Of a stretch of 64,000 nucleotides of DNA, positions 7,225-23,038 are shown in pieces; position 1 is the first letter of the stretch, and each line of letters starts with the position of its first letter. The notes below the pieces were generated by a model. That model was not told the DNA's origin and did not search any database. It was given only the letters and a program-made list of their open reading frames with translations. The position numbers and the translations under genes are program-made. This stretch comes from Pseudomonadota bacterium (lineage in GTDB: Bacteria > Pseudomonadota > Gammaproteobacteria > Steroidobacterales > Steroidobacteraceae). The stretch lies in contig JAKCDC010000008.1 of NCBI GenBank assembly GCA_021838635.1, forward strand, positions 1 to 64,000. The letters are read 5' to 3'.

Positions 7225-8004
7225 TCAGCGCAGCGCCTGCGCCATCATGTAGAGCCCCGCGGCGGCCACCACGGCGCTGAACAGCAGCGTCAGGGCGCGC
7301 TTGCGCGCCCCGAGCACGCCGGCGAGCCTGACCCCGGCATATCCTCCAAGCATCCCCCCGGCCATGAGCAGACCGGCGATCGGCCAGGCGACCAGATGCG
7401 CACTCGCGTAACTCACCGCGGTGGTGCCGGCCACCGCACCGACCGAGATCAGCGAGGTGCCCACCGCACTCAGCAGCGGCAGACCGGCCAGGAAAGTCAG
7501 TGCCGGCACGGTGAGAAAGCCACCGCCGACGCCGACCAGCCCGGCGAGCGAACCGACGCCAAAGCCGGCTGCGGCGAGCGCCGCGAGCCGCGCGCCGCTC
7601 CGATCCGATGGTGCGCGGCTCGCCGCCGCACTGCGGCGCAGCGCACCGCGGACCATCAACGCGGCGATCAGCACCATCAGCGCCCCGAGCAGCGCGAGCA
7701 ACAGGTGGCTGTCGGTGGCGCGGCCAAGACGTGCGCCACTCGCCGCGCCAAGAACGCTGGCCAGAGCGTAGGTGCCCCCTTGACGCCAGCGCACGGTCCC
7801 GGCGCGCGCATGAATGCCCAGGCTCCACAGCGCGCTCGCCGTCGCGGCCACCGTCGATGTGCCGATCGCCAGGTGCGGAGGCAGATGCAGACCGTACACG
7901 AGCAGCGGCACGATCAGAATCGAACCGCCGACTCCGAGCAGCCCGAGCGACAAGCCGGCAAGCGTCCCGCCAAGCAACGTCACGAGCGCCATCGCGACAC
8001 TCAC
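7225..8004 (-). CDS. TauE/SafE (TSUP, DUF81) family membrane exporter
   Basis: A roughly 259-residue integral membrane protein with about eight hydrophobic segments and the two glycine-rich repeats typical of the TSUP family ([19 protein letters not shown] near the start, [19 protein letters not shown] in the middle). Characterised members move sulfite, sulfoacetate, taurine-derived sulfur anions or other organic anions across the inner membrane. The GTG start at 8004 follows GGGGTG; an ATG at 7992 is a possible alternative, and the open frame further upstream is unlikely to be translated. It lies on the same strand as the sulfide operon that starts near 16.6 kb but is separated from it by the kch gene. 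DUF81 exporters belong to the BigR sulfur-detoxification operons of other bacteria, so a sulfite-export role is attractive but inferred. Confidence 0.88.
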
Positions 8005-8178
8005 TTCAACACCCCGCGCCCGGCGCGGCACGCCGTCCCTCTACAGCGGTTCCTGCTATAGTGTTGGCGAGTCATACACTGCGGTCGTCCGAGCGCACCA
8101 CTGGCGCACATCTCGTCCCATGAACGTGCCACCTGATGATTTCTGCCACGCGGTGCGGCCCCTCCGGAGGCGTGGCGC

Positions 8179-9408
8179 GTGAAGCGTGAGTGGTTCAGCG
8201 CCGAGCGCATCTGGCTGCGCAAGGAACAGCAGCGCCTGGAGCGCATGCTGCACATGCGCGCCTGGTTTCCGCAAGTGCCGCTCGCCCTTCTGGTCGGCGC
8301 CCAGGGCCTGCTGCACATCCTGCTCGGCTCCGGCTCACTGCGCCCGCTGCTGCATGCGATCGCCTCCCCGTCCATTAGCTCCCTCGCCGGGGGCGTCGGT
8401 ATCGTACGCATCGGCGCCGGCGCCGCCTCACACGTCGGCATCGGAATCCTGCTGATCCTGGTGGGCTTTGGCATGCTGTGGCGCTCGCGCCTCGCCTGGG
8501 TGCTGGCGTTCATGCTCACCCTGGCCGTGGTGGCGCTCGAGTTCTCCTCGCTCGCGCGCGCCTCGCGACCGATGGAGATCTTCAGCATCGTGCAGTTGCT
8601 GCTGTTGCTCTCTGCGCGTCAGGCCTTCACGCGCGCGAGCCTGGCCACCGCGACGCTGTTTGCGCTGACCGGTCTGCTGCTGACACTCGGCTACGGAACG
8701 CTCGGCGCACTGATTCTCGGCGACGGCTTCCAGCCGCACATCACCACGACGATCAACGCGGCGTACTTCGCCGTGGAGACGATGTCGACCGTCGGCTACG
8801 GCGACATCACCCCGGTGTCGAACGATGCGCGGATCTTCACGATCTCGCTGATCGTGCTCGGTCTGGGCGTGTTCGCCACCGCCTTGCCGGCGATCGCCGG
8901 TCCCTTGATCGACAAGCGGCTGATGAACCTGTTGCAGCCGCGAAGAAGAGGCAAGATGAAGCGCGTGTCCCATGTGATTGTGGTGGGCGACGGCCCGCTC
9001 GCCCAGGATACGGCCCGGGCGCTGCTCGCCCGCGGCCTGCTGGTCACCAGCATCGTCTCGCAGAAGCCGCCGGAGAGCGAACAGCATACCGAGGATGTGC
9101 TGGTCGGCGACGGCAGCGATACCGAACTGCTGCGCCAGGCGGACATCGCCAAGGCGCGCGCGGTCCTCGCCCTCAGCGAGGATGACTCCTACAACGCCTT
9201 CGTGGTGCTCGCGGCGAAGGACATGAACCCCGAGGTGCGTACCGTGGCCGCCGTCAGCGACACGCGCAACACCGGCCGCCTGGCCCGCACCCGGCCCGAT
9301 GTGCTGCTCACGCTGCCGCTGCTCGGCGGGGAGCTGCTCGCCATGGCGCTCAGCGGCGAGCAGATCCAGACCGATGCGCTGATCACCCAGCTGCTGAAAC
9401 TCGGCTAG
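8179..9408 (+). CDS. kch: Kch-type potassium channel with RCK domain
   Basis: A 409-residue channel. Hydrophobic segments cover about residues 32-180, the pore helix and selectivity filter TVGYGD are at 204-209, and a final pore-lining helix is near 215-237. A cytoplasmic TrkA-N/RCK nucleotide-binding domain begins near 247 (SHVIVVGDGPLAQDTA). Length and layout match E. coli Kch (about 417 residues), which forms tetrameric potassium channels gated through the RCK ring. The GTG start at 8179 is supported by GGAGG eight bases upstream. The gene is divergent from the TauE/SafE gene and converges on the TolC-like gene with 13 bases between stops. The 174-base divergent spacer has an extended -10-like TGCTATAGT near 8054-8062 but no good -35. 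Confidence 0.9.
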   Translation: MKREWFSAERIWLRKEQQRLERMLHMRAWFPQVPLALLVGAQGLLHILLGSGSLRPLLHAIASPSISSLAGGVGIVRIGAGAASHVGIGILLILVGFGMLWRSRLAWVLAFMLTLAVVALEFSSLARASRPMEIFSIVQLLLLLSARQAFTRASLATATLFALTGLLLTLGYGTLGALILGDGFQPHITTTINAAYFAVETMSTVGYGDITPVSNDARIFTISLIVLGLGVFATALPAIAGPLIDKRLMNLLQPRRRGKMKRVSHVIVVGDGPLAQDTARALLARGLLVTSIVSQKPPESEQHTEDVLVGDGSDTELLRQADIAKARAVLALSEDDSYNAFVVLAAKDMNPEVRTVAAVSDTRNTGRLARTRPDVLLTLPLLGGELLAMALSGEQIQTDALITQLLKLG

Positions 9409-9421
9409 CGCGCAGCGCACC

Positions 9422-10723
9422 CTAGAGTGCGCCCACCGCGTAGGCAAGACGCAGCCGATCGAGCGCCGCGTCGAGCGTCGCATTGTTGTAGTCCTCCTCG
9501 GCCTGGGTGCGCAGCGTGACGGCCTGAAGCACCTGGGTATTTGACGCCAGTCCGACTCCATAGAGCTGGCGCGAGACGCGCAGGTTCTCCTGCGCCTGCG
9601 CGATCGCGGCCCGCGAGGCCTGCATGCGCGCCCGGGCCGCCGCGAGCGTCAGCCAATCGGCACGCACCTCGAGCGTGATGCGCGAGCGCAAATCGGCAAG
9701 CCGATGCCGTTCGGCGCGGCTGCGTGCACGCAGCGCGTCGGCCTGGTTGGCCGCCGCGCCGCCATCGAAGAGCTTCCAGGTGAAGCCGACGCCGACCGAG
9801 GAGAAATTCTCATGGTTGAGAATCTGGTTGTCGAAATGCGTATAGCCGCCGACCGCCGAGAGGTGCGGCAGCCGGCTCGCGGTTGCGGCGCGCGCCCGCG
9901 CGGCGAGCGCCCCGGCCCGCGCGGCGAGCGCATGCAGCTCCCCTCGCCTGGAGAGCGCCCGCGCGATCAGCTGCGCGAGCGGCAACCGATCGACCGCGAA
10001 AGTCGGCAGCACCGGATCGAGATGCGGAACCCGGCCGAGCGGCTCGCCGAGCAGCCGGTTGTACTCCTCCTGGGACACGGCGAGCGCGTTCTTCGCGCTC
10101 ACCTGACTTGAGCGCGCGTTGGCGAGCGCCACGTCAGCGGCGAGCAGATCGCTCTTGGCCACCATGTGCCGAGCGAATTTCGCCTGTACGTCGCGCCGGT
10201 GCGCAGCGAGACTCTCGACGCTGGCGTTTGCGACCCGGACCTGCCGCCCGGCCCGCAGGACCGCCACGTACGCCTCGGCCACCTCGAGTTTCACGTCCGC
10301 CGCGGTCGCTCGCTGCACAGCAGCCGCCCCTCGAAGCCCGTCACGCGCGGCGGCCTCACCGGCGCGGATCGCCCCGCCGGTGTACAGCGGCAGCCGCATC
10401 TGCACCGTTGCACTCAGGTACTGGTTGTTCCTGAAGATGGGGCCGGAGCGGAACGCGAACGAAGGGGTGAGCACCTCAAGCCGCGCGGTCTGCCCCAGAT
10501 GCGAGTAGCTCGCCTGGGCATCGACGCTCGGCCAGCGCGCATCGCGCGCCGCCCGCGCCCCGGAGCGGGCGGCCTGCACTTCGGCCGCCGCCGCGGCCAA
10601 CGTCTGATTGCGCGCCGCCGCGCGCCGCCATGCCTGCTCCAGCGTCCCCGCCCTCGCCTGCAGCGCAAGCCCCGTGCCCGCCAGGAGCGCCGCCGTGACG
10701 AACCGCTTCACACCCACACTCAT
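9422..10723 (-). CDS. TolC-family outer-membrane efflux protein of the sulfide operon
   Basis: A 433-residue outer-membrane factor with a signal peptide (to about residue 25, LQARAG) and two helical OEP repeats rich in Ala, Arg and Leu with heptad spacing. A beta-strand stretch (LPHLSAVGGYTHFDN) separates the repeats and matches the membrane barrel. TolC proteins form the trimeric exit duct of tripartite pumps. The ATG start overlaps the stop of the sulfide:quinone oxidoreductase gene by four bases (ATGA), indicating translational coupling. It is the last gene of the operon, so the outer-membrane part of the pump is separated from the RND and adaptor genes by the oxidoreductase gene. The substrate is not apparent from the sequence. 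Confidence 0.9.
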   Translation of the reverse strand: MSVGVKRFVTAALLAGTGLALQARAGTLEQAWRRAAARNQTLAAAAAEVQAARSGARAARDARWPSVDAQASYSHLGQTARLEVLTPSFAFRSGPIFRNNQYLSATVQMRLPLYTGGAIRAGEAAARDGLRGAAAVQRATAADVKLEVAEAYVAVLRAGRQVRVANASVESLAAHRRDVQAKFARHMVAKSDLLAADVALANARSSQVSAKNALAVSQEEYNRLLGEPLGRVPHLDPVLPTFAVDRLPLAQLIARALSRRGELHALAARAGALAARARAATASRLPHLSAVGGYTHFDNQILNHENFSSVGVGFTWKLFDGGAAANQADALRARSRAERHRLADLRSRITLEVRADWLTLAAARARMQASRAAIAQAQENLRVSRQLYGVGLASNTQVLQAVTLRTQAEEDYNNATLDAALDRLRLAYAVGAL

Positions 10724-12000
10724 GACTCACTGTCCTTCAGCGACACGATCCCGATCGCCTTCAGCACGTAGCGTTCATAGACCGGGGTGATCGATCCGCT
10801 GCGCACCTTGTGCAGGAAGTACTTCTCGAAGGCCACCTTGCCGAGATGAACCCACTTACCCACCCGAGTCCAGGTCACGTTGCGTGGCGGCATCTGCGGC
10901 AGCGCGACGAATGCCGCGCCGGTATCGCCGAAGTCCGCCAGGCAGACCGCGTTCCAGGTCGCCTCGGCCGTCGCCGTGCGCCCCTCGAGCTCCGCGGCGA
11001 TGTTCGCGCAGATCGCCGAGACCATCGACTCGATCATGTAGCCGGTCTTCGGCGCACCGGTCGGCACCGGGGTCGCCTCCACCGGCGCGATGGCGACGCA
11101 CACACCGGCGGAGAAGATGTTCGGATACTGCTTCGAGCGCTGATGCTGATCGATGAGCACGAAGCCGCGCGGATTGCACAGTCCGGGCACCGCGGCGACC
11201 GCATCGACCCCCTTGAAGGCCGGCAGCACCATGGCGAAGCGAAACGCCAGTGTGTGCTCGTGCCGGAGCTGCGCCTGCTCGTCGAACTCCTGCACACGCA
11301 TCTCCCCGGCGCTCACCGCACTGACCTTGGCGTTGGTGATCCATTTGATGTGGCGCTGCCTGAGCTCAGCCTCCATCAACCCCTTGCTGTCGCCTACCCC
11401 GCCCAAGCCCATGTGACCGATGTACGGCTCGCTGGTGACGAAGGTCATCGGTACTCGGTCGCGCAGCTTGCGCCGACGCAAATCGGCATCGAGGATCATG
11501 GCGAACTCGTAGGCCGGACCGAAGCAGCTCGCGCCGGCGGCCGCACCGATCACCACCGGGCCCGGAGCGCGCACGAACTGTTGGTATTGCTCCCAGGCGC
11601 TCTGCGCGTGCGATTGCGTGCAGATCGAGGCGGTGTATCCGTCGGGTCCGAGCCCGGGGACCTCCTCGAAGGCGAGCTTCGGTCCCGTGGTGATCACCAA
11701 GTAGTCGTACTCAACCGTGCTGCGGTCGCGCAGCGTCAGCACCCGGCGCTCGGCATCGATCGCCTCGACCGGCTGTTCCCTCCACTCGACACCGCGCGCC
11801 GCGAGCGGCTCACGCACCGCCACGCGCGTCCTCTCACGCTCGCGCCATCCGACCGCCACCCACGGATTCGACGGCGTGAACTCGAAGTACGGCGATGAGC
11901 CGACGAGCGTGACGCGATGCGCCTTGTCGAGACGCTTACGCAACGCGTATGCGCACGGCACCCCGCCGAGACCGGCACCGATAATGACTATGTGGGCCAT
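10720..12000 (-). CDS. sqr: Sulfide:quinone oxidoreductase
   Basis: A 426-residue FAD enzyme of the membrane surface that oxidises sulfide to polysulfide or sulfane sulfur and passes electrons to quinone. It begins with the Rossmann motif HIVIIGAGLGG. It carries all three redox cysteines known from the Acidithiobacillus ferrooxidans enzyme: Cys127 (SICTQ), Cys159 (AGASCFGPAYE) and Cys353 (WNAVCLAD). Other family signatures are SNPWVAVGW, TTGPKLAFEEVPG, VTSEPYIGHMG and PTGAPKTGYMIESM. The ATG at 12000 follows a G-rich ribosome site; upstream in-frame codons lack family homology. It lies 66 bases after the RND pump gene and overlaps the TolC-like gene by four bases. The symbol reflects strong resemblance; the exact SQR subtype should be checked by phylogeny. 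Confidence 0.95.
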   Translation of the reverse strand: MAHIVIIGAGLGGVPCAYALRKRLDKAHRVTLVGSSPYFEFTPSNPWVAVGWRERERTRVAVREPLAARGVEWREQPVEAIDAERRVLTLRDRSTVEYDYLVITTGPKLAFEEVPGLGPDGYTASICTQSHAQSAWEQYQQFVRAPGPVVIGAAAGASCFGPAYEFAMILDADLRRRKLRDRVPMTFVTSEPYIGHMGLGGVGDSKGLMEAELRQRHIKWITNAKVSAVSAGEMRVQEFDEQAQLRHEHTLAFRFAMVLPAFKGVDAVAAVPGLCNPRGFVLIDQHQRSKQYPNIFSAGVCVAIAPVEATPVPTGAPKTGYMIESMVSAICANIAAELEGRTATAEATWNAVCLADFGDTGAAFVALPQMPPRNVTWTRVGKWVHLGKVAFEKYFLHKVRSGSITPVYERYVLKAIGIVSLKDSES

Positions 12001-12066
12001 GTGAACCCCCCGAGTGACAACGCTCCGACGTGTCTGACACACCGAACCACTGCAAAGAGCCGTCCG

Positions 12067-15000
12067 TCAGGCATGGGCGCTCTTCGCCTGCGCATCGGGC
12101 GCTCGCGTCTCGTTGCGCGCCAGGTGCGCGTAGTAGAGAACCGGGATCACCACCAGCGTCAGCAGCGTCGAGACGAAGATGCCAAACAGCAGCGAGATGG
12201 CGAGGCCGTTGAAGATCGGATCGGAGAGGATGAACACCGCGCCGAGCATGGCCGCCACGGCGGTGAGCACGATGGGTTTGGCGCGGGTCGCCCCGGCGCG
12301 CACCACCGCCTCCTCGAGCGGGAAGCCGGCGCGCACCGCCCCGTCGATGAAATCCACCAGCAGAATCGAATTGCGCACGATGATGCCGGCGAGCGCGATC
12401 ATGCCGATCATGGAGGTGGCCGTAAATTGCGCCCCGAACAGCGCATGCCCCGGCAACACACCGATGACGGTGAGCGGGATCGGCGCCATGATGATGAGCG
12501 GCACGACGTAGGAACCGAACTGCGCAACGATGAGCAGGTAGATCAGCGCAAGTCCAACCGAGTAGGCAATGCCCATGTCACGGAAGGTGTCGTAGGTGAT
12601 CTGCCACTCCCCGCCCCACTTGATCGCGAACTCATTGGGGTTCGAGGGCGGGTGGATGAAGTGCTGCACCACGTGCACGCCGGCCGGCGGATCGCGGTGC
12701 ACGAGCGCGGCGATCGAGAACATGCCGTAGAGGGGGCTGTCGATCCGGCCGGCCATGTCGCCTGTCACGTACGTCACCGGCAGCAAGTCGCGATGGAAGA
12801 TCGGCTGCTGCCAGGTGCGCCGCTCGATCTGCACCACGGAGGACAACGGCACGAGCGCCCCGCCCGCGGCGCGCACCCGCAGTGCGAGCACCTTGGAGAT
12901 GCGAGCCTGGTCGGCCGGCGAGAGCTCGAGGCGCACCGGAATCGGATTGCGTTCGCGCCCAATGTGCACGTAGGTGGCGTCGTAGCCATGCAGCGCAAGC
13001 GCCACCGTGCGGGCGATGGCCTGCTGCGACACTCCGAGCAACGCTGCCTTCTGCCGCTCGACATGCAGCACCAGGCGCGGCGCCGGCGCATCGACACTGT
13101 CGTCGATATCGACGATGCCCGCGGTATGCTCGAAGTCTTTGCGCACCGCGAGGGCGATCTGACGCTGCTTGGCGTAGCTCGGCCCGTAGATCTCCGCGAC
13201 GATGGGCGCCTGCACCGGCGGTCCGGGCGGAATCTCCACCACGGCGATGGCCGCGCCGAAGCGGCGCGCCACGGGCGCAAGCTGCTTGCGCGCCGCGAGC
13301 GCAATCGCGTGACTTTCCCGCTCTCGGGCATCCTTCGGCACCAGCTCGACCGCGATCTCCCCGAGCCGCGGGCTGTGTCGCAGATAGTACTGGCGCACCA
13401 GACCGTTGAAATTCACCGGTGCCGCCGTCCCGGCATACACCTGGTAATCGCTGACCTCGGGCATGCGCGCGAGCACCTGTGCGAGCGCATCCAGCACGTG
13501 CGCGGTCCGCTCCACCGGCGTGCCCACCGGCATGTTGACCACCACTTCGAACTCGGACTTGTTGTCGAAGGGCAGCATCTTCATCACCACCGCCTCGAAC
13601 ACCACCAGGCTCACGGCGAGGAGAATCGCCACACCAATGCCGGTGTAGAGCCAGCGGCGCCGGCGCCGGCCCTCGGGGCCGGCGAGAAACGGTCCCACCA
13701 CACGCTGAAAGAACCCGAGCAGCGGCAACTGCGGGCGGTGTTCGAGCGGCTCGATATGGGTCTTGCTGAGCAGCTTGCGGCACAACCAGGGCGTGAACAT
13801 CAGCGCCACACCGAGGGAGAGCAGCATGCCGGAGCTGGCGTTGATCGGGATGGGACTCATGTAGGGGCCCATCAGACCGCCGACGAAGGCCATCGGCATC
13901 AGCGCGGCGATCACCGTGAAGGTGGCGAGAATGGTCGGTCCGCCGACCTCATCGACCGCCACGGGGATGATGTCGCTCAGCGTGCCGCCGCCGAGGCGCA
14001 TGTGCCGATGGATGTTCTCCACCACGACGATCGCATCATCGACCAGGATGCCGATGGAGAAGATCAGCGCAAAGAGCGACACACGGTTGATGGTGAAGCC
14101 CCAGGCCCACGAGGCGAACAGCGTAGCCATCAGGGTGACACCGACGGCCGCCCCGACCACGAGCGCCTCGCGCCGCCCCATGGTGAGCACGACCAGCAGC
14201 ACCACCGAGAGGGTGGCCTCGAAGAGCTTCTCGATGAGTTCCTTGGCCTTCTGATTGGCGGAGTGGCCGTAGTTGCGCGTGACGGTGACGTGGACTCCGG
14301 CCGGAATGTACGTGCCGCCGAGTTCGCGCACCCGCTGCATCACCGCATCGGCGATGGTGCTGGCGTTGGTTCCACTCTTCTTGGCAATGGCGAGCGTCAC
14401 CGCCGGCGCTTCGCTCACCGCCGGCAGATGCCGGGTTGCGGCCCCCGCACCGGTCCCGAACCACACATAGTCGTGCGGCGCATCGGGCGCGGCGGACACC
14501 TGGGCCACATCGGTGAGGTAGATCGGCTGCCCGTCATGCACACCCACCACGAGGCGGGCCACATTGGCCCGTCCGGCGAGGAAGGTCCCGGCCTGCACCG
14601 GCACGACGTGATCGGCGCCGATCAGGTCCCCGGCCTGGCGCACCAGATTGGCCGCCTGCAGCGCCCGGGCGACATCCGAGGCGGCCAGTCCGTAGGCGGC
14701 GAGCCGGCCCGGCTCAAGGCGCACGCGCACGATGCTCTGCGGGGCCCCGATGGTGTACACCTTGCGCGTGCCGGGGATGCGCTTCAGCTGCGTCTCGATC
14801 GCGTGCGCGACCTGCCCGAGCTGGTACGACCCGTAGCGCGATTCGCCGCTCCAGAGCGTCAACGTGACGATGGGCACATCGTTGATGCCCATGGGCTTGA
14901 TCAGCGGAGGCAGCACGCCGGCACCCGGCGGCCACAGGTCGCGATGCGAATAGATCGCGTTGTACAGCCGGACCAGCGAGGGATTACGCCGCTCGCCCAC

Positions 15001-15309
15001 TTTGAACTGCACGCCGATCACGGCGAGGCCCGACTTAGACTCCGAGAAGATGTGCTTCACGCCGGAGACTTCCCCGAGCACCTGCTCCATCGGCGTGGTC
15101 ACCTGATCGGCGACCTGCTGCGCCGAGGCGCCCGGGAAGGGAATAAACACGTTCGCAAAGGTGACGTGGATCTGCGGGTCTTCCTCCCGCGGGGTGATCG
15201 CCAGTGCGAACAGACCCAAGCCCACCGCGAGCAGCGCCAGCAGCGGGGTGATCTGGTTGTGCAGAAAGCGCCGGGCGAGCCGCCCGCTGAAGCCGAGCTC
15301 GGTGCTCAC
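12067..15309 (-). CDS. RND-family efflux pump permease of the sulfide operon
   Basis: A 1,080-residue AcrB-like permease with the usual twelve membrane helices and two large periplasmic loops. The N-terminus has the PREEDPQI motif after the first helix. The fourth helix carries the paired aspartates of the proton relay (GILVDDAIVVVENIHRH), which suits proton-driven export of hydrophobic or organic substrates and not the heavy-metal CzcA/CusA pattern. It starts with a GTG that overlaps the stop of the adaptor gene (GTGA). The oxidoreductase gene follows 66 bases later. The class is certain; the substrate is unknown. Its position behind a persulfide-type regulator suggests a sulfur compound or a toxic by-product of sulfide oxidation, which is inference. 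Confidence 0.94.
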   Translation of the reverse strand: MSTELGFSGRLARRFLHNQITPLLALLAVGLGLFALAITPREEDPQIHVTFANVFIPFPGASAQQVADQVTTPMEQVLGEVSGVKHIFSESKSGLAVIGVQFKVGERRNPSLVRLYNAIYSHRDLWPPGAGVLPPLIKPMGINDVPIVTLTLWSGESRYGSYQLGQVAHAIETQLKRIPGTRKVYTIGAPQSIVRVRLEPGRLAAYGLAASDVARALQAANLVRQAGDLIGADHVVPVQAGTFLAGRANVARLVVGVHDGQPIYLTDVAQVSAAPDAPHDYVWFGTGAGAATRHLPAVSEAPAVTLAIAKKSGTNASTIADAVMQRVRELGGTYIPAGVHVTVTRNYGHSANQKAKELIEKLFEATLSVVLLVVLTMGRREALVVGAAVGVTLMATLFASWAWGFTINRVSLFALIFSIGILVDDAIVVVENIHRHMRLGGGTLSDIIPVAVDEVGGPTILATFTVIAALMPMAFVGGLMGPYMSPIPINASSGMLLSLGVALMFTPWLCRKLLSKTHIEPLEHRPQLPLLGFFQRVVGPFLAGPEGRRRRRWLYTGIGVAILLAVSLVVFEAVVMKMLPFDNKSEFEVVVNMPVGTPVERTAHVLDALAQVLARMPEVSDYQVYAGTAAPVNFNGLVRQYYLRHSPRLGEIAVELVPKDARERESHAIALAARKQLAPVARRFGAAIAVVEIPPGPPVQAPIVAEIYGPSYAKQRQIALAVRKDFEHTAGIVDIDDSVDAPAPRLVLHVERQKAALLGVSQQAIARTVALALHGYDATYVHIGRERNPIPVRLELSPADQARISKVLALRVRAAGGALVPLSSVVQIERRTWQQPIFHRDLLPVTYVTGDMAGRIDSPLYGMFSIAALVHRDPPAGVHVVQHFIHPPSNPNEFAIKWGGEWQITYDTFRDMGIAYSVGLALIYLLIVAQFGSYVVPLIIMAPIPLTVIGVLPGHALFGAQFTATSMIGMIALAGIIVRNSILLVDFIDGAVRAGFPLEEAVVRAGATRAKPIVLTAVAAMLGAVFILSDPIFNGLAISLLFGIFVSTLLTLVVIPVLYYAHLARNETRAPDAQAKSAHA

Positions 15310-16385
15310 CGCGCGCTCCCGGTGATCACCGGGAAGGGCGCGAGCCGGCGCATCGCCGCGAGCGGATCGAGCGCCACCTGCTCACCGGGCGCGAGTCCCG
15401 CGAGCACCTCAACCTGCGCGCCAACCGGCTCGCCGAGGCGCACCTGCTGCAGCAGCGTCTGCCCATCGGACTCGACTAAGTAGACCGCGGTCACCCCGCT
15501 GCGGCGCACGACGGCGCGCTGCGGCACGAGAATCTGCGCCCGCTCACCGGTGTCGAACGCCACGCGCACCACCATGCCGGGGTACAGTCCCGCAAGGCCC
15601 GCCGGCAGCGCCAGGTGGACCGTGAAGGTGTTGGTTTGGGGCGAGGCCTCGGGGAACACGGTCACGTGCGCGGCGCGGATCCTCTGCGTCCCCAGATAGA
15701 CCGTCGCCCGCCCGATCCGGCGCACCGTATCGGCGAGTGACTGTGGGATATTCACCTCGATGCGCAAGGCGCGCAGCGAGGCGATGCCGAGCAGCGCCGT
15801 GCCCGGGGCGACCGCCTCGCCCACCTGCACCAGGCGCCGGGTGATCACCCCGGCGTACGGGGCGCGAATCTCGGTGTAATCGACGCCCTGAGCGGCGCTC
15901 GCCACCGCCGCCCGGGCGCTGTTGAGCCCGGCGAGCGCCGCGGCGCGCGCGGCCGTGACCTGATCGAGGTCCGCCTTGGGCACGACCTGTTGGTCATAGA
16001 GGTGGCGGATCCGGCGGTAGCGCGTCTGGACTTCGGTGGCGCGCGCCGCAGCGGCGCGCAGTGCCGCGCGGGCCTGACCGAGGCTGGCCCGCTGGATCGT
16101 GGCATGCAGCCGCATCAGCAGCGCCCCGGCCGGCACCGAGTCATCGACATGGTGGTAGACCGCCGTGACGCGTCCGGTCGTCTGTGCCGTGAGCGTAGCC
16201 CGATCGACCGCCTGCACGATGCCATCGAAGCGCTGCCGGGCAGCGCCGCGCTGGAAACCCACCCGCAGCGTCGCGAGCGCCGAAGCGCTCGCACGCGGCT
16301 TCGCCTCATGAGGGGCACTGCAGGCGGCCAAGGCGCCGGCCGCGGTGCACGCCAGCGCCGCGCTCAGAAGTGCTCGACGGCTCAT
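15306..16385 (-). CDS. RND adaptor (membrane-fusion) lipoprotein of the sulfide operon
   Basis: A 359-residue HlyD/AcrA-like periplasmic adaptor. The N-terminus is a lipoprotein signal with lipobox LAAC, so Cys22 is the likely acylation site. After it come the barrel-sandwich half (GIVQAVDRATLTAQTTGRV), an alpha-helical hairpin (about 95-160), the second lipoyl half (YTEIRAPYAGVITRRLV), a beta-barrel and a membrane-proximal domain. The ATG at 16385 follows GGGAGGG. It lies 16 bases after the DUF2892 gene and overlaps the RND gene by four bases. It bridges the inner-membrane pump to the TolC-like duct encoded two genes further on. Confidence 0.93.
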   Translation of the reverse strand: MSRRALLSAALACTAAGALAACSAPHEAKPRASASALATLRVGFQRGAARQRFDGIVQAVDRATLTAQTTGRVTAVYHHVDDSVPAGALLMRLHATIQRASLGQARAALRAAAARATEVQTRYRRIRHLYDQQVVPKADLDQVTAARAAALAGLNSARAAVASAAQGVDYTEIRAPYAGVITRRLVQVGEAVAPGTALLGIASLRALRIEVNIPQSLADTVRRIGRATVYLGTQRIRAAHVTVFPEASPQTNTFTVHLALPAGLAGLYPGMVVRVAFDTGERAQILVPQRAVVRRSGVTAVYLVESDGQTLLQQVRLGEPVGAQVEVLAGLAPGEQVALDPLAAMRRLAPFPVITGSAR

Positions 16386-16401
16386 CGCGCCCTCCCGGAG
16401 C

Positions 16402-16602
16402 TCAAAACGCCGCGCCGGGCTTGACCCCGAAACGCTTGAGAATCTTCGCCAGCGGGCAGAACCCGGTGAAGGCCGATTGCAGCATGTTTACCCCGACAAA
16501 TGCCGGCACGATCAGCCACCAGGGGCTCGCGAGCCAGGCGAGCAGCACGCCGATCAGCACGAAACTGCCGGCAAACGCAAAGACCATTCGATCGACTGAC
16601 AT
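16402..16602 (-). CDS. DUF2892 (YgaP transmembrane-like) small membrane protein
   Basis: A 66-residue protein with two hydrophobic helices (about 6-24 and 26-42) and the DUF2892 signature around [21 protein letters not shown]. The same fold forms the membrane part of E. coli YgaP, a rhodanese; here there is no attached rhodanese domain. In BigR-type sulfur operons a DUF2892 protein is a regular member next to the ArsR regulator. The conserved Cys in GFCP may carry or sense sulfane sulfur, but this is inference. The ATG at 16602 has GAGGGAGAG upstream. It is the first gene of the sulfide operon, directly behind the promoter-operator at 16651-16678. Confidence 0.9.
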
Positions 16603-16650
16603 GGCACTCTCCCTCGAACGAGGCCGGTGCGAGTGACCGGCGGTGAGCCC

Positions 16651-16678
16651 AGTATATTAGGTACGTCTAATTTAGCAA
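16651..16678 (-). promoter_or_regulatory. Promoter of the sulfide/RND operon
   Basis: On the minus strand a -35 box TTGCTA (16673-16678) and a -10 box TATACT (16651-16656) are separated by 16 bases. The predicted start near 16644 gives a leader of about 42 bases before the DUF2892 gene. The palindrome at 16656-16671 fills the spacer, so a bound repressor would block RNA polymerase. Confidence 0.65.
16656..16671. promoter_or_regulatory. Candidate operator of the ArsR-family regulator
   Basis: This is an AT-rich inverted repeat ATTAG-GTACGT-CTAAT in otherwise GC-rich DNA. It lies in the divergent spacer between the DUF2892 operon and the arsR-type gene, exactly within the operon promoter. ArsR-family repressors bind such short imperfect palindromes. 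It would be expected to control the operon and probably the regulator itself. Confidence 0.65.
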
Positions 16679-16717
16679 GTGGCGATTGAACACGAACTGG
16701 TTTAAACTGCATGCCCC

Positions 16718-17083
16718 ATGCGAACGCCGCCCTCACCGCCCGCCAAGAGCCGCCGGAGCACCTCCTCGGCGGGCAGCCCGCTGCTGCGCGCCGCACACGA
16801 CATGCAGCCGCACTGCGTCGAGGCGGCCGGAGTGCTGCGGGCGCTGGCGAACGAGCAGCGCTTGTTGATCCTGTGTCATCTGGTGGCGGCACCGTTGTCA
16901 GTCGGGCAGTTGAACGAACGCGTTCCTCTCAGCCAGTCTGCGCTCTCGCAACACCTGGCGGTGCTGCGCAAAGCCGGCATGGTGCGCACCGAGCGCGAAT
17001 CGCAGACGGTCTACTATTCGCTCGCTCCGGGCATCGTCACGCGCCTGCTCGGTGTCCTGCACGACGAATTTTGCGGCGTCTGA
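16718..17083 (+). CDS. ArsR-family persulfide-sensing type repressor (SqrR/BigR/YgaV-like)
   Basis: A 121-residue winged-helix regulator. The helix-turn-helix spans about 60-90 (LSQSALSQHLAVLRKAGMV) and the wing is TERESQTVYYSL. Two cysteines sit at the places used by SqrR, BigR and YgaV: Cys53 in RLLILCHL and Cys119 in DEFCGV. In those proteins the pair forms a tetrasulfide or disulfide with persulfide and releases DNA. Cys33 is extra. No metal-binding CxC motif of arsenic sensors is present. The ATG at 16718 has no clear ribosome site; with a -10-like TTTAAA at 16701 the mRNA could be nearly leaderless. An internal ATG at 16802 is the alternative start and would keep both sensor cysteines. 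Confidence 0.87.
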   Translation: MRTPPSPPAKSRRSTSSAGSPLLRAAHDMQPHCVEAAGVLRALANEQRLLILCHLVAAPLSVGQLNERVPLSQSALSQHLAVLRKAGMVRTERESQTVYYSLAPGIVTRLLGVLHDEFCGV

Positions 17084-17131
17084 GCCCCCGTGGTTCAATA
17101 GGGGGTTTCCACCGCGAATCCCTTGATTTTC

Positions 17132-18208
17132 ATGTCCGCACTGTTCGACTCGCTGCAGGTCGGCGAGCTACGGCTTCCCAATCGCATCGTCATGGCGCCG
17201 CTGACCCGCAGCCGCGCCGGCGAGCACCGCATCCCGAACGCGCTGATGTGCGAGTACTACCGGCAGCGCGCCGGCGCCGGCTTGATCATCTCGGAGGCGA
17301 CGGTGGTCACCCCGATGGGCGTCGGCTACGCCGACACGCCGGGCATCTGGTCGGATGAGCAGGTCGCCGGGTGGCGGCAGGTCACGCGGGCCGTGCATGC
17401 CGAGGGCGGACGGATCTTTCTGCAGCTCTGGCATGTCGGCCGAGTCTCGCACCCGCTATTCCTCGGCGGCGAACGGCCGGTCGCCCCCAGTGCGATAGCG
17501 CCCGAGGGGCACGTGAGCCTCGTGCGTCCGCACACCGCCTACGTGGTGCCCCGCGAACTGCCGAGCGCGGAGATTGCCGAGATCATCGCGGCCTTCGCGC
17601 GGGGCGCGGAAAATGCCGAACGCGCAGGTTTCGACGGCGTGGAGCTGCACGGGGCCAACGGCTACCTGCTCGACCAGTTTCTCCAGGACAGCGCCAACCG
17701 CCGCGACGATGCGTACGGCGGATCGATCGAGAACCGCGCCCGGCTCCTGCTCGAGGTGACGGATGCGGCCGCCGGCGTGTTCGGTCCCGGACGCGTAGGC
17801 GTGCATCTCGCACCTCGCGGCGATGCGCACTCCATGGGGGATTCCGATCGCGCCGCGACCTTCGGCTACGTCGTACGCGAACTGTCACGACGGCGGATCG
17901 CCTTCGTATTCGCGCGCGAGCATCCCGACGGCGAGCGCATCGGCCCGCAGCTGAAGCGAGCGTTCAGCGGCGTCTACATCGCCAACGAGAAACTCACCCG
18001 CGAGAGCGCCACCGGCCTGATCGAGCGGGGCGAGGCCGACGCGGTGGCCTTCGGCAAGCTGTTCATCGCAAACCCCGATCTGGTCGAGCGCCTGCGCACC
18101 GGTGCGCCGCTGAATGAGCCGCGGCCGGAATTCTTCTACGCCGGAGGCGCGGCCGGATACACCGATTATCCGGCGCTCGCCGACCCCCAAGGGCACCGCC
18201 GCCGGTAA
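17132..18208 (+). CDS. Old Yellow Enzyme family ene-reductase
   Basis: A 358-residue FMN-dependent TIM-barrel oxidoreductase of the NemA/xenobiotic reductase type, reducing activated C=C bonds, nitro compounds or quinone-like electrophiles with NAD(P)H. The motif HGANGYLLDQFLQ contains the substrate-binding pair His173 and Asn176. The active-site entry PLTRSRAG and the C-terminal flavin-phosphate region (ADAVAFGKLFIANPDLVERL) are present. The ATG at 17132 was chosen over an in-frame TTG at 17123; the ribosome site is weak. It begins 48 bases after the ArsR-type gene on the same strand and could share its transcript. Confidence 0.92.
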   Translation: MSALFDSLQVGELRLPNRIVMAPLTRSRAGEHRIPNALMCEYYRQRAGAGLIISEATVVTPMGVGYADTPGIWSDEQVAGWRQVTRAVHAEGGRIFLQLWHVGRVSHPLFLGGERPVAPSAIAPEGHVSLVRPHTAYVVPRELPSAEIAEIIAAFARGAENAERAGFDGVELHGANGYLLDQFLQDSANRRDDAYGGSIENRARLLLEVTDAAAGVFGPGRVGVHLAPRGDAHSMGDSDRAATFGYVVRELSRRRIAFVFAREHPDGERIGPQLKRAFSGVYIANEKLTRESATGLIERGEADAVAFGKLFIANPDLVERLRTGAPLNEPRPEFFYAGGAAGYTDYPALADPQGHRRR

Positions 18209-18214
18209 GGCCGC

Positions 18215-19030
18215 TCAGCCGCCGAAGCTGAAGCAGGAATAGGCTTTGCCGCCAATGCGGCCGCGGAACCGCGCCCGTCCCGGATCATCCCCGGCGGCGG
18301 CGGCGGCGACCATGAGCGGCATGAGATGCTCCTCACGCGGGTGACAGGCGCGCGCCTGCGGCGCGCGCTCCCAGGCGAGCAGCCGCGCACGCCGTTCAGC
18401 CGGATCGACCTGCACCGCCGTCTCGTTCAGCCACGCATCGAAGGCCTCCGAGCCGCCCTCCCCGCCGGCAAAGATCGCACGCAGATTGTGGTAGCTGCTG
18501 CCGCTGCCGATGATCAACACCCCGTCACTGCGCAGCGGCGCGAGCGCTGCGCCGAGGGCCCAGTGGCGCGCCGGATCCAGATCCGCCGTGAGCGAGAGCA
18601 TGAGCACGGGAATGTGTGCCGCCGGATCGATGATCAGCATCGGCACGAACACCCCGTGATCGAAGCCACGCTCGGCGTCGCTCGCCGTGCTGATCCCGGC
18701 GCCCTCCAGCACTCCACGCACCCGCGCGGCAAGCTCCGGGGCACCGGGCGCCGGATAATTCAGCTGATACGTATGCGGCGGAAAGCCGTAGTAATCAAAT
18801 AGCATCGAGGGCGCCGGGGCGCTCGCGACCGTCGGCACCGGCTCCTCCCAGTGCGCGCTCACCATGAGGATGGCGCGCGGCGGGGCCGGCAGACTCCCGA
18901 GCACACCCTCGAGGTAGACCCGCAGTCCCTCGTAGGCACGCGGGCCGAACGGCGCGGGGAATTCCATCCAGAAACACGGGCCACCCCCGTGGGTCAAATA
19001 GATCGTCGGCTGGCGCACAGAACTCTGCAC
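18215..19030 (-). CDS. LigB-type extradiol dioxygenase (4,5-DOPA dioxygenase/YgiD-like)
   Basis: A 271-residue class III ring-cleavage dioxygenase, the same length as E. coli YgiD. Metal-ligand histidines are seen in THGGG (His14), VSAHWE (His60), SSYHNL and HPREEHLMPL, plus the conserved GFDHGVFVPM. The family uses Fe(II) or Zn(II) and cleaves catechols such as L-DOPA in vitro; the natural substrate is generally unknown. The GTG at 19030 is preferred because AGGAG precedes it; an upstream GTG at 19057 has no ribosome site. The gene converges with the ene-reductase gene (6 bases between them) and is divergent from the metallo-hydrolase. Confidence 0.92.
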   Translation of the reverse strand: MQSSVRQPTIYLTHGGGPCFWMEFPAPFGPRAYEGLRVYLEGVLGSLPAPPRAILMVSAHWEEPVPTVASAPAPSMLFDYYGFPPHTYQLNYPAPGAPELAARVRGVLEGAGISTASDAERGFDHGVFVPMLIIDPAAHIPVLMLSLTADLDPARHWALGAALAPLRSDGVLIIGSGSSYHNLRAIFAGGEGGSEAFDAWLNETAVQVDPAERRARLLAWERAPQARACHPREEHLMPLMVAAAAAGDDPGRARFRGRIGGKAYSCFSFGG

Positions 19031-19069
19031 AGGAGCGCTCCTCGGAATCTCGTGCACTCATGCTAGCAT
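19031..19069. promoter_or_regulatory. Short divergent spacer with two perfect palindromes
   Basis: Only 48 bases separate the divergent dioxygenase and metallo-hydrolase genes. They contain AGGAGCGCTCCT (19031-19042), which also includes the dioxygenase ribosome site, and ATGCTAGCAT (19060-19069). Either may be a protein-binding site; no promoter boxes could be assigned. Confidence 0.35.
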
Positions 19070-19078
19070 CAGCGCGCG

Positions 19079-19957
19079 ATGAGTCACCAAGACGGCAGGT
19101 ATGCCGACGCACGGCGCAGCCCCCCGGTCCAGCCCGGGGTGCCGGTGCGTCTCTCGGCGCGGGTCTGGCGCCTGACCTGCGGCAATGCCGGGCTGATGAC
19201 CGGCCCGGGCACCAACAGCTATTTCGTCGGCGAGGGTGATCACTGGGCGCTGATCGACCCCGGTCCAGCGCAGTCGCGGCATTTGCTCGCGCTGCAAAAC
19301 GGCGCGCCCGGCCCGATCCGGCGCATCCTGGTGACCCATACTCACCCCGACCACTCCCCGGGCGCCGCGCCGCTGAAGCGCCTGACCGGCGCCGAACTGC
19401 TCGGGCGGGTAAGCGCACACCCGCACGGCCAGGACGGCTCCTTCCTCCCCGACCGGGAACTCACCGACGGGGAGCGCGTGACGCTCGGCCCGGGCACCGT
19501 GCTGAGAGTGCTGCACACGCCCGGCCATGCCTCGAACCACCTGTGCTACCTGCTCGAGGCCGAGGGACTGCTGTTCACCGGAGATCACATCATTCAGGGC
19601 TCGACCGTGCTGATCGATCCGCCGGACGGGGACATGCAGGCGTATATCGCCTCGCTGCAGCGGCTGCTGCGCGAGGATCTCACCGCGCTCGCTCCCGGAC
19701 ACGGTGAGCGGATCGATGAGCCGCACGAAGCGCTCTGTGCGCTCATTGCGCACCGCTTGAACCGCGAGGCGAAGGTGCTGGAGGCCCTGAGCGCGCAGCA
19801 GCCGGCCACGCTCGCCGAACTGTGCGCGGGCGCCTACGAGGACGTGGCGCCGACGCTGTGGGGACTCGCCGAGCGCTCCCTGCTCGCGCACCTGCTGAAG
19901 CTCGAGGCTGACGGGCGCGCCCTGCGGCACGGGGAACGCTGGCGCGCCGCCCCCTGA
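19079..19957 (+). CDS. Metallo-beta-lactamase-fold hydrolase (LACTB2-like)
   Basis: A 292-residue MBL-fold protein. The metal motif THTHPDHSPG is near residues 86-95, the second histidine is in TPGHASNHLCY, the bridging Asp in LLFTGDHIIQGS and the last His in LAPGHGE. A C-terminal helical domain follows (about 225-290), as in LACTB2-like members, which include endoribonucleases and thioester hydrolases. The substrate cannot be told from sequence. The ATG at 19079 has no strong ribosome site. The gene is divergent from the dioxygenase and ends 12 bases before the stop of the convergent RND gene. Confidence 0.9.
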   Translation: MSHQDGRYADARRSPPVQPGVPVRLSARVWRLTCGNAGLMTGPGTNSYFVGEGDHWALIDPGPAQSRHLLALQNGAPGPIRRILVTHTHPDHSPGAAPLKRLTGAELLGRVSAHPHGQDGSFLPDRELTDGERVTLGPGTVLRVLHTPGHASNHLCYLLEAEGLLFTGDHIIQGSTVLIDPPDGDMQAYIASLQRLLREDLTALAPGHGERIDEPHEALCALIAHRLNREAKVLEALSAQQPATLAELCAGAYEDVAPTLWGLAERSLLAHLLKLEADGRALRHGERWRAAP

Positions 19958-19969
19958 GGCGCGGCGCAC

Positions 19970-22900
19970 TCAGGCGGTGGCGCCCTCGTAGCGCTCCGTC
20001 AGCCACAACACCACCGGCATGACCAGCAGCACCAGCGGCAGCTGCACGATCGCCCCGGCGATGATCGCGATCGCGAGCGGTTGGAGCATCTGGTCGCCCG
20101 AACCGCTGATCGCCGCTGCGAGCGGCACCAGCGCCAGGATCATCGCCAGCGTGCTCATGGTGATCGGGCGCAGCCGATTCAGCGCCGCCTCATAGAGCGC
20201 CTCACGCCGCGGCATGCTGCGCGCGAGCGTCTGGTACTCCGAGACGTAGAAGATCGCCATTTCGGTCGAAATGCCGACGATCATCACCATGCCCATCATG
20301 GCGGTGATGTTCAGCTCCACCCGCGTCAGCCACAGCCCGACGAACACCGCGCCGGTGGAGATCAGCGCACTCAGCATGATCACCACCGGCGTGACGAACC
20401 GCTCGTAGAGGAACAGCAGCAAAATCAGCTCCGCGACCAACGCGGCGCCGAACACCCGGATCATGCCGTGCACGGCGAGCTGTTCCTGCTTGTACTGGCC
20501 GCCGAGGGTGTACATCACCCCGGGAGGCAGCAGACCGGGTTTGCTCAGCACCTGCTTGACGCCCGCGATGGTCGTACTCAATGCATAACCGCCGCCGATC
20601 TGCGCCGTCACCGCGACGATCTGCGCCAGGTTGTCGCGGGTGAGCTCAGGCTGACCGGCAACGAAGCGCACCGTGGCGACGCTGGCCAGTCGCAGCATCC
20701 GCCCATCGGGCGCGCGGATCGGCAGATCCCCGAGCTGGCTGCGGTAGATGCGCCGCTCCGGCGGACTCAGCCACAGGCGCACGCCGATGTCCTGCACGCT
20801 GCCGAGATAGCTCGTCACCACCGCACCGTGCAGGTAGTGATAGACCTGGTCGCGCACCTGCGCCACCGTGAGCCCCTCCATCGCGGCTGCGGCCGGATCG
20901 ACGTGGATGTCGAGCGCATCCCCGGCCGGCACCACCCCGTCGATGACCGAGGCCGGCTCGATCCCCGGCACGGCGCGGATCGCCTTGGCGACCCGCACCG
21001 CCACGGCACCGAGCACTGCCGGGTTCTTCGCGCTGAGGGAGATGACCACCGGCTGGCGCCGTCCGACCATGTCCCCGATCATGTCGCTCATCAGCTGATG
21101 GGTATCGAAATCGATGCCCGGCACGTCACGCGTGACCTTGCGGGTGATCTCATCCATCACCTTCCAGATGTTGGGCCGTTTCGAGGAGGAGATCAGGCGC
21201 ACGAAGAAATCGCCCTGATAGGCCTCGTTCAGATCTCCACCCAGACCCGCACCCGTGCGGCGCGAGTAGGTGTACACGTACGGGTCCTTGTGCAGGATGT
21301 ACTCGATCTCCTCGAGCTCGCGGTTCGTCTCGGTGAGCGAGGTACCCGGGGCCGCCTGGTAATCGAGGACGAAGCCGCCCTCGTCCATGCGCGGCAGAAA
21401 CCCGCTGCCGACGTTGAGGTAGGCGACGTATCCGACCAGCACCACCACCCCGAGCACCGGCACGAGCAGCACGGGCTTCTCGAACAGCCGGCTGAGTGCC
21501 TTGCCGTGCACGCGCTTCAGCCGCGTTTCCTTGCCATGGGAGGGATCGTGGAAGTTCCTGAAGTCGATCAGGCTCCGCGCCAGCAGCGGCACCGCGAAGG
21601 CGGTGAGGATCAGCGAGATGATCAGCGCCGAGGCCATGGTGAGGGAGAGGAACTTGAAGAACGCCCCGGTGATGCCGGAGAGAAACGCAAGCGGAATGAA
21701 GATGATGATCGTGGCCAGACTCGAGCCGAGCAGCGGCGCGAGAAACTCGCGCGCCGCGGTGAGCACGCTCTGCTGCGGCTTTTCCAGTCCGGGTACGCCG
21801 GCGCGCCGCGCAATGTGCTCGATCATGACGATGACATCGTCGATCAGCAGGCCGATCGCCGCGGCAATCCCGCCCAAGGTCATGATGTTGAAGGTCATGC
21901 CGAGCAGCGACAGCAGCAGCACGGTGATCAGCACCGACAGCGGCACCACCACCATCGCCACCATCGTGACTCGCCAGTTACGCAGGAACGCGAGCAGCAC
22001 CAGCGCGGCGAACACCAGACCGATCAGGATCGCCTCCTCGAGCGCGGCGATCGAGGAGCCGACCATCTGGGTCTGGTCGTACCACTTGTACAGGTGGATG
22101 GCCTTCGGCTGGGTCTTCATGAACGCCGAGAGGCGCTGCTTGACCTTGCGTGCCAGGCTGATCGAGTCTGCGTTGTCCTGCTGGTAGACGTCGAAGGTCA
22201 CCGCCGGCTTGCCGTTGTCATCGACCAGCAGCCACTGCGGCACCGTGCCCATCGTAATCTTGGCGATGTCCCCGAGGCGCACGATGCCGTTGGTCGCGGT
22301 GCGCAGCGCCACTCTGCGCACCGAGTGCAGCGATGTGAACGCATTGTTGTTGATCGCGAGGTACAACAGATCGTTGTCCTCCAGCCGCCCGACGGCCTGC
22401 ACGACGTTGGTCTGCGCGAGCGCCTGGGAGACCTGCGCGAGCGTCAGGCCGAAGGCGCGCAGCTTCTCCTCATTGACCGACACCTGCACCTCGGGGGTCT
22501 TCCCGCCGAGCACCCCGACGCGGCGCACGCCCGGAATGCCAGTGAGCAGCGGGGTGATCTCGTACTGCGCGAGCTGGCGCAACGCCGTCGGCGGCACGCT
22601 CTTGGAAATGAGCGCGTACGACACGAACGGCATGATGATGTTCGGACTCATCTGGATGATGTCGTAGCTGGTGCCCTTCGGCAGCGTCGGCAGTTCCTGG
22701 GCGAGCGCCGCGTCGACCGCGAGCAGCGCCTGATTCATGTTCGAGCCCCAGGGAAAATCGACGTAGATCTGCGCCGAGCCGCGCGAGGTGGTGGAGGTCA
22801 CGTTCTGCGCGCCGGGAATAGCGCGGGTGCTCTGCTCGAGCGGCTCGGTCACATCGACCAGCATCTGGCGCGCCGGCATGCTGCCGGTGCTCACTTCGAT

Positions 22901-23038
22901 CCGGATGCGCGGAAAGCTGGTCACCGGGAACAGCCCCACCGGCAGCGAGATGGCCGCGAACACCCCGGCGAGCGCGAGTGCAAAGGCAATCGTCAGGAGC
23001 GAGCGGCGGTGCCGCTCGACCCATTCGGAGAAGCTCAC
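19970..23038 (-). CDS. RND-family efflux permease, second system
   Basis: A 1,022-residue RND pump with twelve predicted helices and duplicated periplasmic loops. The N-terminal loop contains PVTSFPRIRIEVSTGSMPARQM. Helix 4 has a paired acidic motif GLLIDDVIVMIEH, without the single-Asp metal-transporter pattern, so a hydrophobic or organic substrate is more likely than a metal. The GTG start overlaps the stop of the adaptor gene (GTGA). It is the last gene of an operon encoding outer-membrane lipoprotein, adaptor and pump, divergent from a two-component system that may control it. It is clearly distinct in sequence from the RND protein of the sulfide operon. Confidence 0.93.
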   Translation of the reverse strand: MSFSEWVERHRRSLLTIAFALALAGVFAAISLPVGLFPVTSFPRIRIEVSTGSMPARQMLVDVTEPLEQSTRAIPGAQNVTSTTSRGSAQIYVDFPWGSNMNQALLAVDAALAQELPTLPKGTSYDIIQMSPNIIMPFVSYALISKSVPPTALRQLAQYEITPLLTGIPGVRRVGVLGGKTPEVQVSVNEEKLRAFGLTLAQVSQALAQTNVVQAVGRLEDNDLLYLAINNNAFTSLHSVRRVALRTATNGIVRLGDIAKITMGTVPQWLLVDDNGKPAVTFDVYQQDNADSISLARKVKQRLSAFMKTQPKAIHLYKWYDQTQMVGSSIAALEEAILIGLVFAALVLLAFLRNWRVTMVAMVVVPLSVLITVLLLSLLGMTFNIMTLGGIAAAIGLLIDDVIVMIEHIARRAGVPGLEKPQQSVLTAAREFLAPLLGSSLATIIIFIPLAFLSGITGAFFKFLSLTMASALIISLILTAFAVPLLARSLIDFRNFHDPSHGKETRLKRVHGKALSRLFEKPVLLVPVLGVVVLVGYVAYLNVGSGFLPRMDEGGFVLDYQAAPGTSLTETNRELEEIEYILHKDPYVYTYSRRTGAGLGGDLNEAYQGDFFVRLISSSKRPNIWKVMDEITRKVTRDVPGIDFDTHQLMSDMIGDMVGRRQPVVISLSAKNPAVLGAVAVRVAKAIRAVPGIEPASVIDGVVPAGDALDIHVDPAAAAMEGLTVAQVRDQVYHYLHGAVVTSYLGSVQDIGVRLWLSPPERRIYRSQLGDLPIRAPDGRMLRLASVATVRFVAGQPELTRDNLAQIVAVTAQIGGGYALSTTIAGVKQVLSKPGLLPPGVMYTLGGQYKQEQLAVHGMIRVFGAALVAELILLLFLYERFVTPVVIMLSALISTGAVFVGLWLTRVELNITAMMGMVMIVGISTEMAIFYVSEYQTLARSMPRREALYEAALNRLRPITMSTLAMILALVPLAAAISGSGDQMLQPLAIAIIAGAIVQLPLVLLVMPVVLWLTERYEGATA

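Follow-up and report, generated by a model that had tools for sequence, protein, structure and literature searches.

The window analyzed here is a stretch of 64,000 nucleotides from contig JAKCDC010000008.1 of a Steroidobacteraceae assembly (GCA_021838635.1). At positions 9422-17083 it carries a minus-strand run of genes for a DUF2892 protein, a periplasmic adaptor, a resistance-nodulation-division (RND) permease, a type I sulfide:quinone oxidoreductase (SQR) and a TolC-like duct, with an ArsR-family regulator encoded divergently. The same set of genes recurs in related genomes, which confirms that the grouping is not due to chance, and SQR is an optional part of it. Our favored explanation, held tentatively and with slightly less than even confidence, is that this is a reactive-sulfur stress operon in which a repressor responding to sulfane sulfur controls SQR and a pump that exports a product of sulfane-sulfur stress; export of sulfane-sulfur products is our best guess for the function of the pump. 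We favor this explanation because the cysteine pair of the regulator aligns with that of known relatives and a palindrome is conserved inside a promoter-like site, because SQR and pump co-occur in the family and in the class and lie within 3 kb of each other in nearly all family genomes that have both, because their linkage was probably built more than once, and because a similar operon of Azospira is highly expressed under sulfide oxidation.

Genes of the operon and its predicted control

Every one of the six genes scores above its Pfam family cut-off, and the gene order agrees with the preliminary description of this locus, as do two stop/start overlaps of four bases, one between adaptor and permease (15306-15309) and one between SQR and duct (10720-10723). 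The remaining gaps are 16 nt between DUF2892 and adaptor and 66 nt between permease and SQR, the latter counted from the SQR ATG at 12000 (a longer GTG open reading frame begins at 12042). The DUF2892 (YgaP-like_TM) transmembrane protein (16402..16602, minus strand) matches PF11127 with 48.5 bits against a cut-off of 25.3. The adaptor, a membrane-fusion lipoprotein (15306..16385, minus strand), reaches 189.2 bits on TIGR01730 (cut-off 94.9), and a lipobox-like LAAC can be read directly off its sequence. The HAE-like permease (12067..15309, minus strand; PF00873, 501.6 bits) has 6vej as its best solved relative by sequence (248 bits) and carries the motif GILVDDA, which is invariant across the 76 linked-clade and 54 sister-group permeases introduced below and whose aspartate pair we take to be the proton-relay aspartates of the fourth transmembrane segment. 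Together with the TolC-like outer-membrane duct (9422..10723, minus strand; PF02321, 178.5 bits) the locus thus encodes all three components of a tripartite RND system. The SQR (10720..12000, minus strand) gives a full-length match (query residues 15-439; 545 bits, E 9.2e-163) to the solved 3sz0 group, which we take to be the SQR of Acidithiobacillus ferrooxidans; three of its cysteines align with those of that enzyme, presumably the catalytic C128, C160 and C356, and mark it as a type I SQR of predicted activity.

The regulator (16718..17083, plus strand; Pfam HTH_5, 46.3 bits) has as its nearest solved relatives, in this order, HlyU (4k2e, E 1.2e-22), NolR, the ArsR group with 6o8l (E 1.4e-17), BigR (3pqj, E 1.6e-15) and YgaV. 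In line with the cysteine pair claimed earlier, residues C53 and C119 each have a cysteine opposite them in the alignments to HlyU and to the 6o8l protein, which we take to be SqrR. NolR has no cysteine at the first of these positions and its alignment stops short of the second. The ArsR fold and the two conserved cysteines place the protein, as a prediction, in the SqrR/BigR/HlyU kind; it is not called BigR here because it reaches 78.3 bits on the NCBIfam BigR equivalog NF040642, where the cut-off is 155, and the regulators of the relatives L041 and L085 (L-numbers denote loci and G-numbers genomes in our comparison) likewise fall under that cut-off. The pair is kept in 47 of the 68 regulator open reading frames found near pumps. 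In characterized members the two cysteines make a tetrasulfide with sulfane sulfur, according to PMC12423496.

In the regions upstream of these 47 two-cysteine regulators the palindrome ATTAG-N6-CTAAT occurs exactly in 13 and with at most one mismatch in 34, compared to means of 0.03 and 0.2 over 40 shuffles, the palindrome having been discovered in the same 47 regions that were used for counting. In the window it forms a predicted operator at 16656..16671, the sole match there at up to one mismatch (chance mean 0.08), and the exact palindrome is present at one site only in the 3.47-Mb assembly. It fills the spacer of a predicted sigma-70 promoter of the operon, TTGCTA-16-TATACT (16651..16678, minus strand), and touches the -10 element by one base; nine of the 12 promoter positions match the consensus (shuffles mean 0.1), which is a consensus match and not proof. 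The natural reading is that the repressor would block the operon promoter at the palindrome. Regulation of the persulfide or sulfane-sulfur type, as first proposed, is therefore supported at the level of sequence by the cysteine pair and by the conserved palindrome inside the promoter-like site. The SqrR motif ATTC-N8-GAAT (quoted in PMC9774250), which has the same length of 16 bp and differs at two positions, was considered as the operator and rejected, because an exact copy is lacking from the 330 window bases searched and is present in two of the 47 regions (L142 and L161). The sequence CTAAATTAG is present upstream of the regulator in several relatives and also lies within the footprinted HlyU oligonucleotide (PMC4330345).

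In the explanation we favor, the ArsR repressor would sit on ATTAG-N6-CTAAT between the -35 and -10 elements and shut the operon promoter until sulfane sulfur, by analogy with SqrR, YgaV and sHdrR, links C53 to C119 and frees the repressor from the DNA. SQR would then, as expected of its family, oxidize sulfide to sulfane sulfur and pass the electrons to quinone, while adaptor, RND pump and duct, going by their families, would work as one proton-driven tripartite exporter. This exporter may rid the periplasm or inner membrane of a product of sulfane-sulfur stress, the candidate substrates being polysulfide, hydrophobic sulfur, and organic persulfides and polysulfides. Pump, DUF2892 and regulator would be the stabler core, and SQR, or elsewhere a persulfide dioxygenase, would be an add-on feeding or relieving the same stress.

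Association of SQR with the pump

Within the family (150 Steroidobacteraceae genomes, SQR counted at E up to 1e-40) 56 genomes have SQR, 76 have the permease and 51 have both. The two genes lie on one contig in 47 of these 51, less than 3 kb apart in 46, and 34 of the 46 close pairs have gaps below 100 nt. The pump is thus found in 51 of 56 genomes with SQR versus 25 of 94 without it (Fisher p 2e-15, for genomes that are related and not independent). Draft contigs end early in several genomes, which affects the family as well as the class counts; at L024 of G019 an SQR that has a cut RND gene beside it was counted as lone, and L020 of G064 is a short contig. The neighborhood of 20 pump loci was compared, 19 of them from the 25 pump-bearing genomes without SQR and one from G028, in which SQR lies 0.85 Mb from the pump. 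In 16 of these 20 loci an ArsR and a DUF2892 gene both lie close to the pump; L127 has ArsR only, L131 has DUF2892 only, and the sequence of L133 and of L136 breaks off upstream. At L124, from the genus of the window, an SQR remnant remains between RND and duct (7822-8085), consisting of two pieces side by side that correspond to residues 1-55 (80% identity) and 383-426 (52%); the middle of the gene is gone and the permease frame is open in this genome (G133).

Outside the family, the comparison drew on the top 80 of 589 loci from named records that had been found through SQR (L039-L118), and because of this choice SQR is over-represented in the tree and the locus counts. The pump is near SQR in Solimonas variicoloris (L085), Luteimonas weifangensis (L086), Mizugakiibacter sediminis (L060), Oleiagrimonas citrea (L108), Simplicispira psychrophila (L064) and Undibacterium macrobrachii (L092). 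Where SQR is flanked by 5.5 kb or more on each side (42 loci), the pump lies within 5.5 kb of it in 26 cases and does not in 16. The order DUF2892-adaptor-RND-SQR-TolC, for which the preliminary description suggested a search of genomes, varies between lineages: SQR follows RND, precedes DUF2892, or follows DUF2892 and duct. These varied gene orders, together with the spread of RND-linked SQRs over several parts of the SQR tree, make it probable that the linkage arose on more than one occasion.

It is possible to read SQR as a passenger gene inserted in the pump operon with no function shared between them, and such a history would agree with the scatter of SQR over the pump tree, with the remnant kept at the same place in L124 and with the rarity of SQR-pump neighbors across the class. 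We consider it very improbable, given that 46 of the 51 family genomes with both genes have them within 3 kb, 34 with gaps below 100 nt, and that the same partners meet in differing gene orders.

Across the class (369 genomes, SQR at E up to 1e-80, permease at 53% identity or more after a hand cut of the list) the permease is present in 102 genomes, SQR in 105 and both in 56, so that the pump occurs in 56 of 105 genomes with SQR versus 46 of the 264 others (p 2e-11, the genomes again not being independent). The family and class tallies are the least selected of our counts. In G299 (C14) and G505 (C1) the permease found within 4 kb of SQR is more distantly related (45-46% identity), and a second pump type may therefore also meet SQR. 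Among plasmids, a permease below 60% identity was found in 43 records.

The preliminary description had also held that the dioxygenase of known BigR-type operons is absent here and that the RND system takes its place. The first part stands: the operon of the window includes no dioxygenase gene, as a BigR-type dioxygenase operon would, and the assembly (96.5% complete) yields only three partial matches (34-39%) to the dioxygenase of a relative. One of these, C112, most resembles a 2xf4-type hydroxyacylglutathione hydrolase, another, C91, scores best on GloB (183 of 200.8 bits), and the remaining match is to the gene at 19079-19957 of the window; with matches that are only partial or hydrolase-like, the lineage of the window is without a recognizable dioxygenase. 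The second part does not hold in general. The gene next to the regulator at L044, L045 and L138 scores 294-371 bits against the dioxygenase portion of Blh (the cut-off of 625, not reached, applies to the whole fusion), and the L138 protein matches 4ysk, which we take to be a Pseudomonas persulfide dioxygenase, with 333 bits. Dioxygenase-like gene, SQR and pump share one strand at L044, L045 and L047, and L138 combines the dioxygenase-like gene with the pump where SQR is absent. Such a gene lies within 5.5 kb at 10 of 131 permease loci and is on the strand of the pump in six of them (L044, L045, L047, L060, L081 and L138, those of L047 and L060 identified by profile only), five of the six also having SQR. 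A pump acting as a general substitute for the dioxygenase is rejected in view of these relatives that carry both.

The permease tree and the competing explanations

The locus set comprises 131 distinct full-length permeases, 93 of them with at least 5 kb on each side, and is not a random sample. At these 93 well-flanked loci, regulator plus DUF2892 were found at 41, SQR at 35, a dioxygenase-like gene at nine and none of the four at 39. A FastTree phylogeny of the 131 permeases with one very distant outgroup (branch 6.3), for which the root is unsure, gives a linked clade of 76 permeases with support 0.705 (0.972 for 71 of them). A regulator, DUF2892, SQR or dioxygenase gene is near 73 of these 76 pumps; the exceptions are L133 and L136, both cut short upstream, and L163, which is not cut. 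In the sister group of 54 permeases four have such a gene nearby and 50 are without one in the available flanks, and L221 falls outside both groups. The 60 class-level loci were hand-picked, mostly by score (L217-L220 were taken because SQR is near), and all 54 sister-group permeases come from these 60, of which five fall in the linked clade; group and sampling are therefore confounded. The permease tree, together with the scatter of SQR on it, suggests that the pump tends to travel with the sensor while SQR comes and goes.

Several observations weigh against a dedicated sulfur exporter. No alignment position is conserved at 90% or more in the 76 linked pumps and at less than 10% in the 54 others, and what is conserved in the linked pumps is likewise conserved in the sister group. 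SQR presence changes 15 times on the linked clade, compared to a shuffled mean of 15.7 (60 loci); in the RND-seeded loci alone SQR is present in two of 20, too few to inform on its gain or loss. Known RND substrates are mostly amphiphiles larger than small polysulfides. As many as 25 of the 76 pump-bearing family genomes are without detectable SQR, and across the class the distance between SQR and pump is 6 kb or less in only five of the 56 genomes with both, the window included. Close linkage therefore marks the family of the window and some other lineages and not the class. In one branch the linked ArsR regulator is without the SqrR cysteine pair and has a C-x3-C motif near its end (LCDLVC-like). 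Finally, deletion of SQR or of the whole operon in Azospira left the sulfide oxidation rate unchanged (PMC5358917), a result more in keeping with a role in tolerance than with one in oxidation. The ArsR proteins lacking the pair are those of L053, L057, L059, L067, L079, L082, L089, L090, L092, L106, L130, L141, L144-L147 and L218; the named records in this branch are mostly Burkholderiales, joined by L144 and L145 of the genus of the window.

The main rival to the favored explanation is a general envelope-protection or multidrug exporter, for which sulfane sulfur would be only an induction signal of respiratory or electrophile stress and SQR would be co-induced without being the source of the substrate. 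We regard this as a serious possibility, although one we would on the whole doubt. The lack of a separating permease position and the weak class-wide linkage favor it, and the best-scoring families of the permease are generic multidrug RND permeases (RND_permease_2, 463 bits, where the cut-off of 1250 is not reached). It also agrees with the 50 of 54 sister-group loci whose available flanks lack all four partner genes (regulator of this kind, DUF2892, SQR and dioxygenase), and with an old yellow enzyme gene (17123-18208, plus strand; PF00724) that lies about 40 nt past the regulator on the same strand, where it may be co-transcribed with it; this gene stands behind the regulator in eight same-genus loci as well and is absent there from two other loci of that genus, L144 and L145. 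A general pump accounts less well for the presence of at least one of the four partner genes near 73 of 76 linked pumps, many of these loci having been found via SQR, and for an SQR link that appears in several gene orders and SQR branches, the orders with the dioxygenase varying too.

Removal of metal-sulfide or metal-persulfide complexes, or of metals mobilized by sulfide, is in our judgment an improbable role for the pump. The authors of the Azospira study suggested that metal efflux pumps may export metal sulfides (PMC5358917), and the adaptor of the window also matches the CzcB/NccB model, with 137 bits against a cut-off of 319. The permease, however, scores lower on the CusA/CzcA model TIGR00914 (230 bits, cut-off 701) than on RND_permease_2 and so falls outside the HME metal RND permeases; the methionines conserved in linked pumps are also conserved in the sister group, except M1021 (100% versus 78%); and the regulator carries the sulfur cysteine pair.

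The sister group has a different neighbor. A LysR gene is near the pump in 26 of the 55 loci outside the linked clade versus two of 76 inside, and in 22 of the 55 it lies within 700 nt downstream on the same strand, behind the adaptor-RND pair. The one sister-group LysR protein that was classified reaches 250.6 bits on the selenium-metabolism LysR model (cut-off 250) and misses YeiE (200.7 bits, cut-off 480). A broader proposal is that the whole permease family, both groups together, is dedicated to exporting reactive sulfur or selenium species under lineage-specific sulfur sensors, which would be SqrR/BigR-like regulators with DUF2892, another ArsR type and, in the sister group, a LysR of the selenium-metabolism kind; we consider this unlikely. 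As further observations on the sister group and its surroundings, a membrane-transporter gene often lies beyond the LysR gene in L164-L212 (20 of 44 loci; AI-2E/YtvI-like, under every curated cut-off), and the sister-group locus L179 has a PRF-like gene (dioxygenase-rhodanese fusion) on the opposite strand.

The favored explanation bears on how the sulfane sulfur made by SQR is disposed of where no dioxygenase is present, and a pump that stays with a sensor of the sulfane-sulfur type as SQR is gained and lost, along with a predicted operator located at single-base precision, makes this question testable. If a dedicated reactive-sulfur exporter is true, a permease type found in 102 of 369 class genomes gains a physiological substrate; if it is not, the operon is a clean case of sulfide signaling that switches on a general pump.

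Some further genes surround the operon. A TauE/SafE exporter gene (7225-8031, minus strand), which went unmentioned in the preliminary description, lies on the strand of the operon 1.4 kb past the duct, with a convergent K+-channel gene (8179-9408, plus strand) between them. Both genes are at the same place in the same-genus loci L041, L151, L152 and L153, and TauE was not found at L155 and L156. On the other side, positions 18215-23038 hold a LigB-type dioxygenase gene (minus strand), a gene of the metallo-beta-lactamase fold (plus strand) and a second, distant RND permease gene (19970-23038, minus strand), and similar genes flank the operon in several same-genus relatives.

Comparison with known systems

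The closest described system is Dsui_3440-3443 of Azospira suillum PS, where genes for a cation/multidrug efflux pump, an RND adaptor, SQR and a protein of unknown function form one operon that was strongly expressed under sulfide-oxidizing conditions and flagged by Bar-seq (PMC5358917). Going by the description in that paper, it resembles the operon of the window in that pump, adaptor and SQR genes share an operon, and differs in its numbered order (unknown protein, pump, SQR, adaptor) and in that neither an ArsR regulator nor a duct is named in the text available. In the survey of PMC12423496, two-cysteine ArsR regulators are encoded near RND, sqr, pdo or TauE genes, as in the window, and RND pumps are named among the likely targets of sulfane-sulfur ArsR regulators; section 6 gives these pumps one sentence, and the survey has no description of the palindrome, of the optional SQR or of the pump clade.

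The FisR and BigR operons of Acinetobacter baumannii likewise join persulfide-sensing regulators to sulfur-oxidizing enzymes and TauE or YeeE/YedE transporters; as described in the accessible text they have no tripartite RND exporter, whereas the operon of the window has no dioxygenase (PMC7315123). The ygaVP operon of E. coli shares with the window an ArsR repressor of the SqrR/BigR kind, and YgaP gave its name to the PF11127 domain matched by the DUF2892 protein; unlike the window operon, it is described as ygaV and ygaP only, with YgaP as a rhodanese (PMC9774250). Our literature search, which could not use the spelling sulfide:quinone and excluded supplements, found neither a palindrome for such a pump operon nor a pump substrate, and the accessible parts of PMC8269239 and PMC10128140 have nothing on this operon. 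With a similar operon in PMC5358917, and in PMC12423496 as well, the operon of the window is known in outline; the palindrome, the optional SQR and the pump clade are new in detail.

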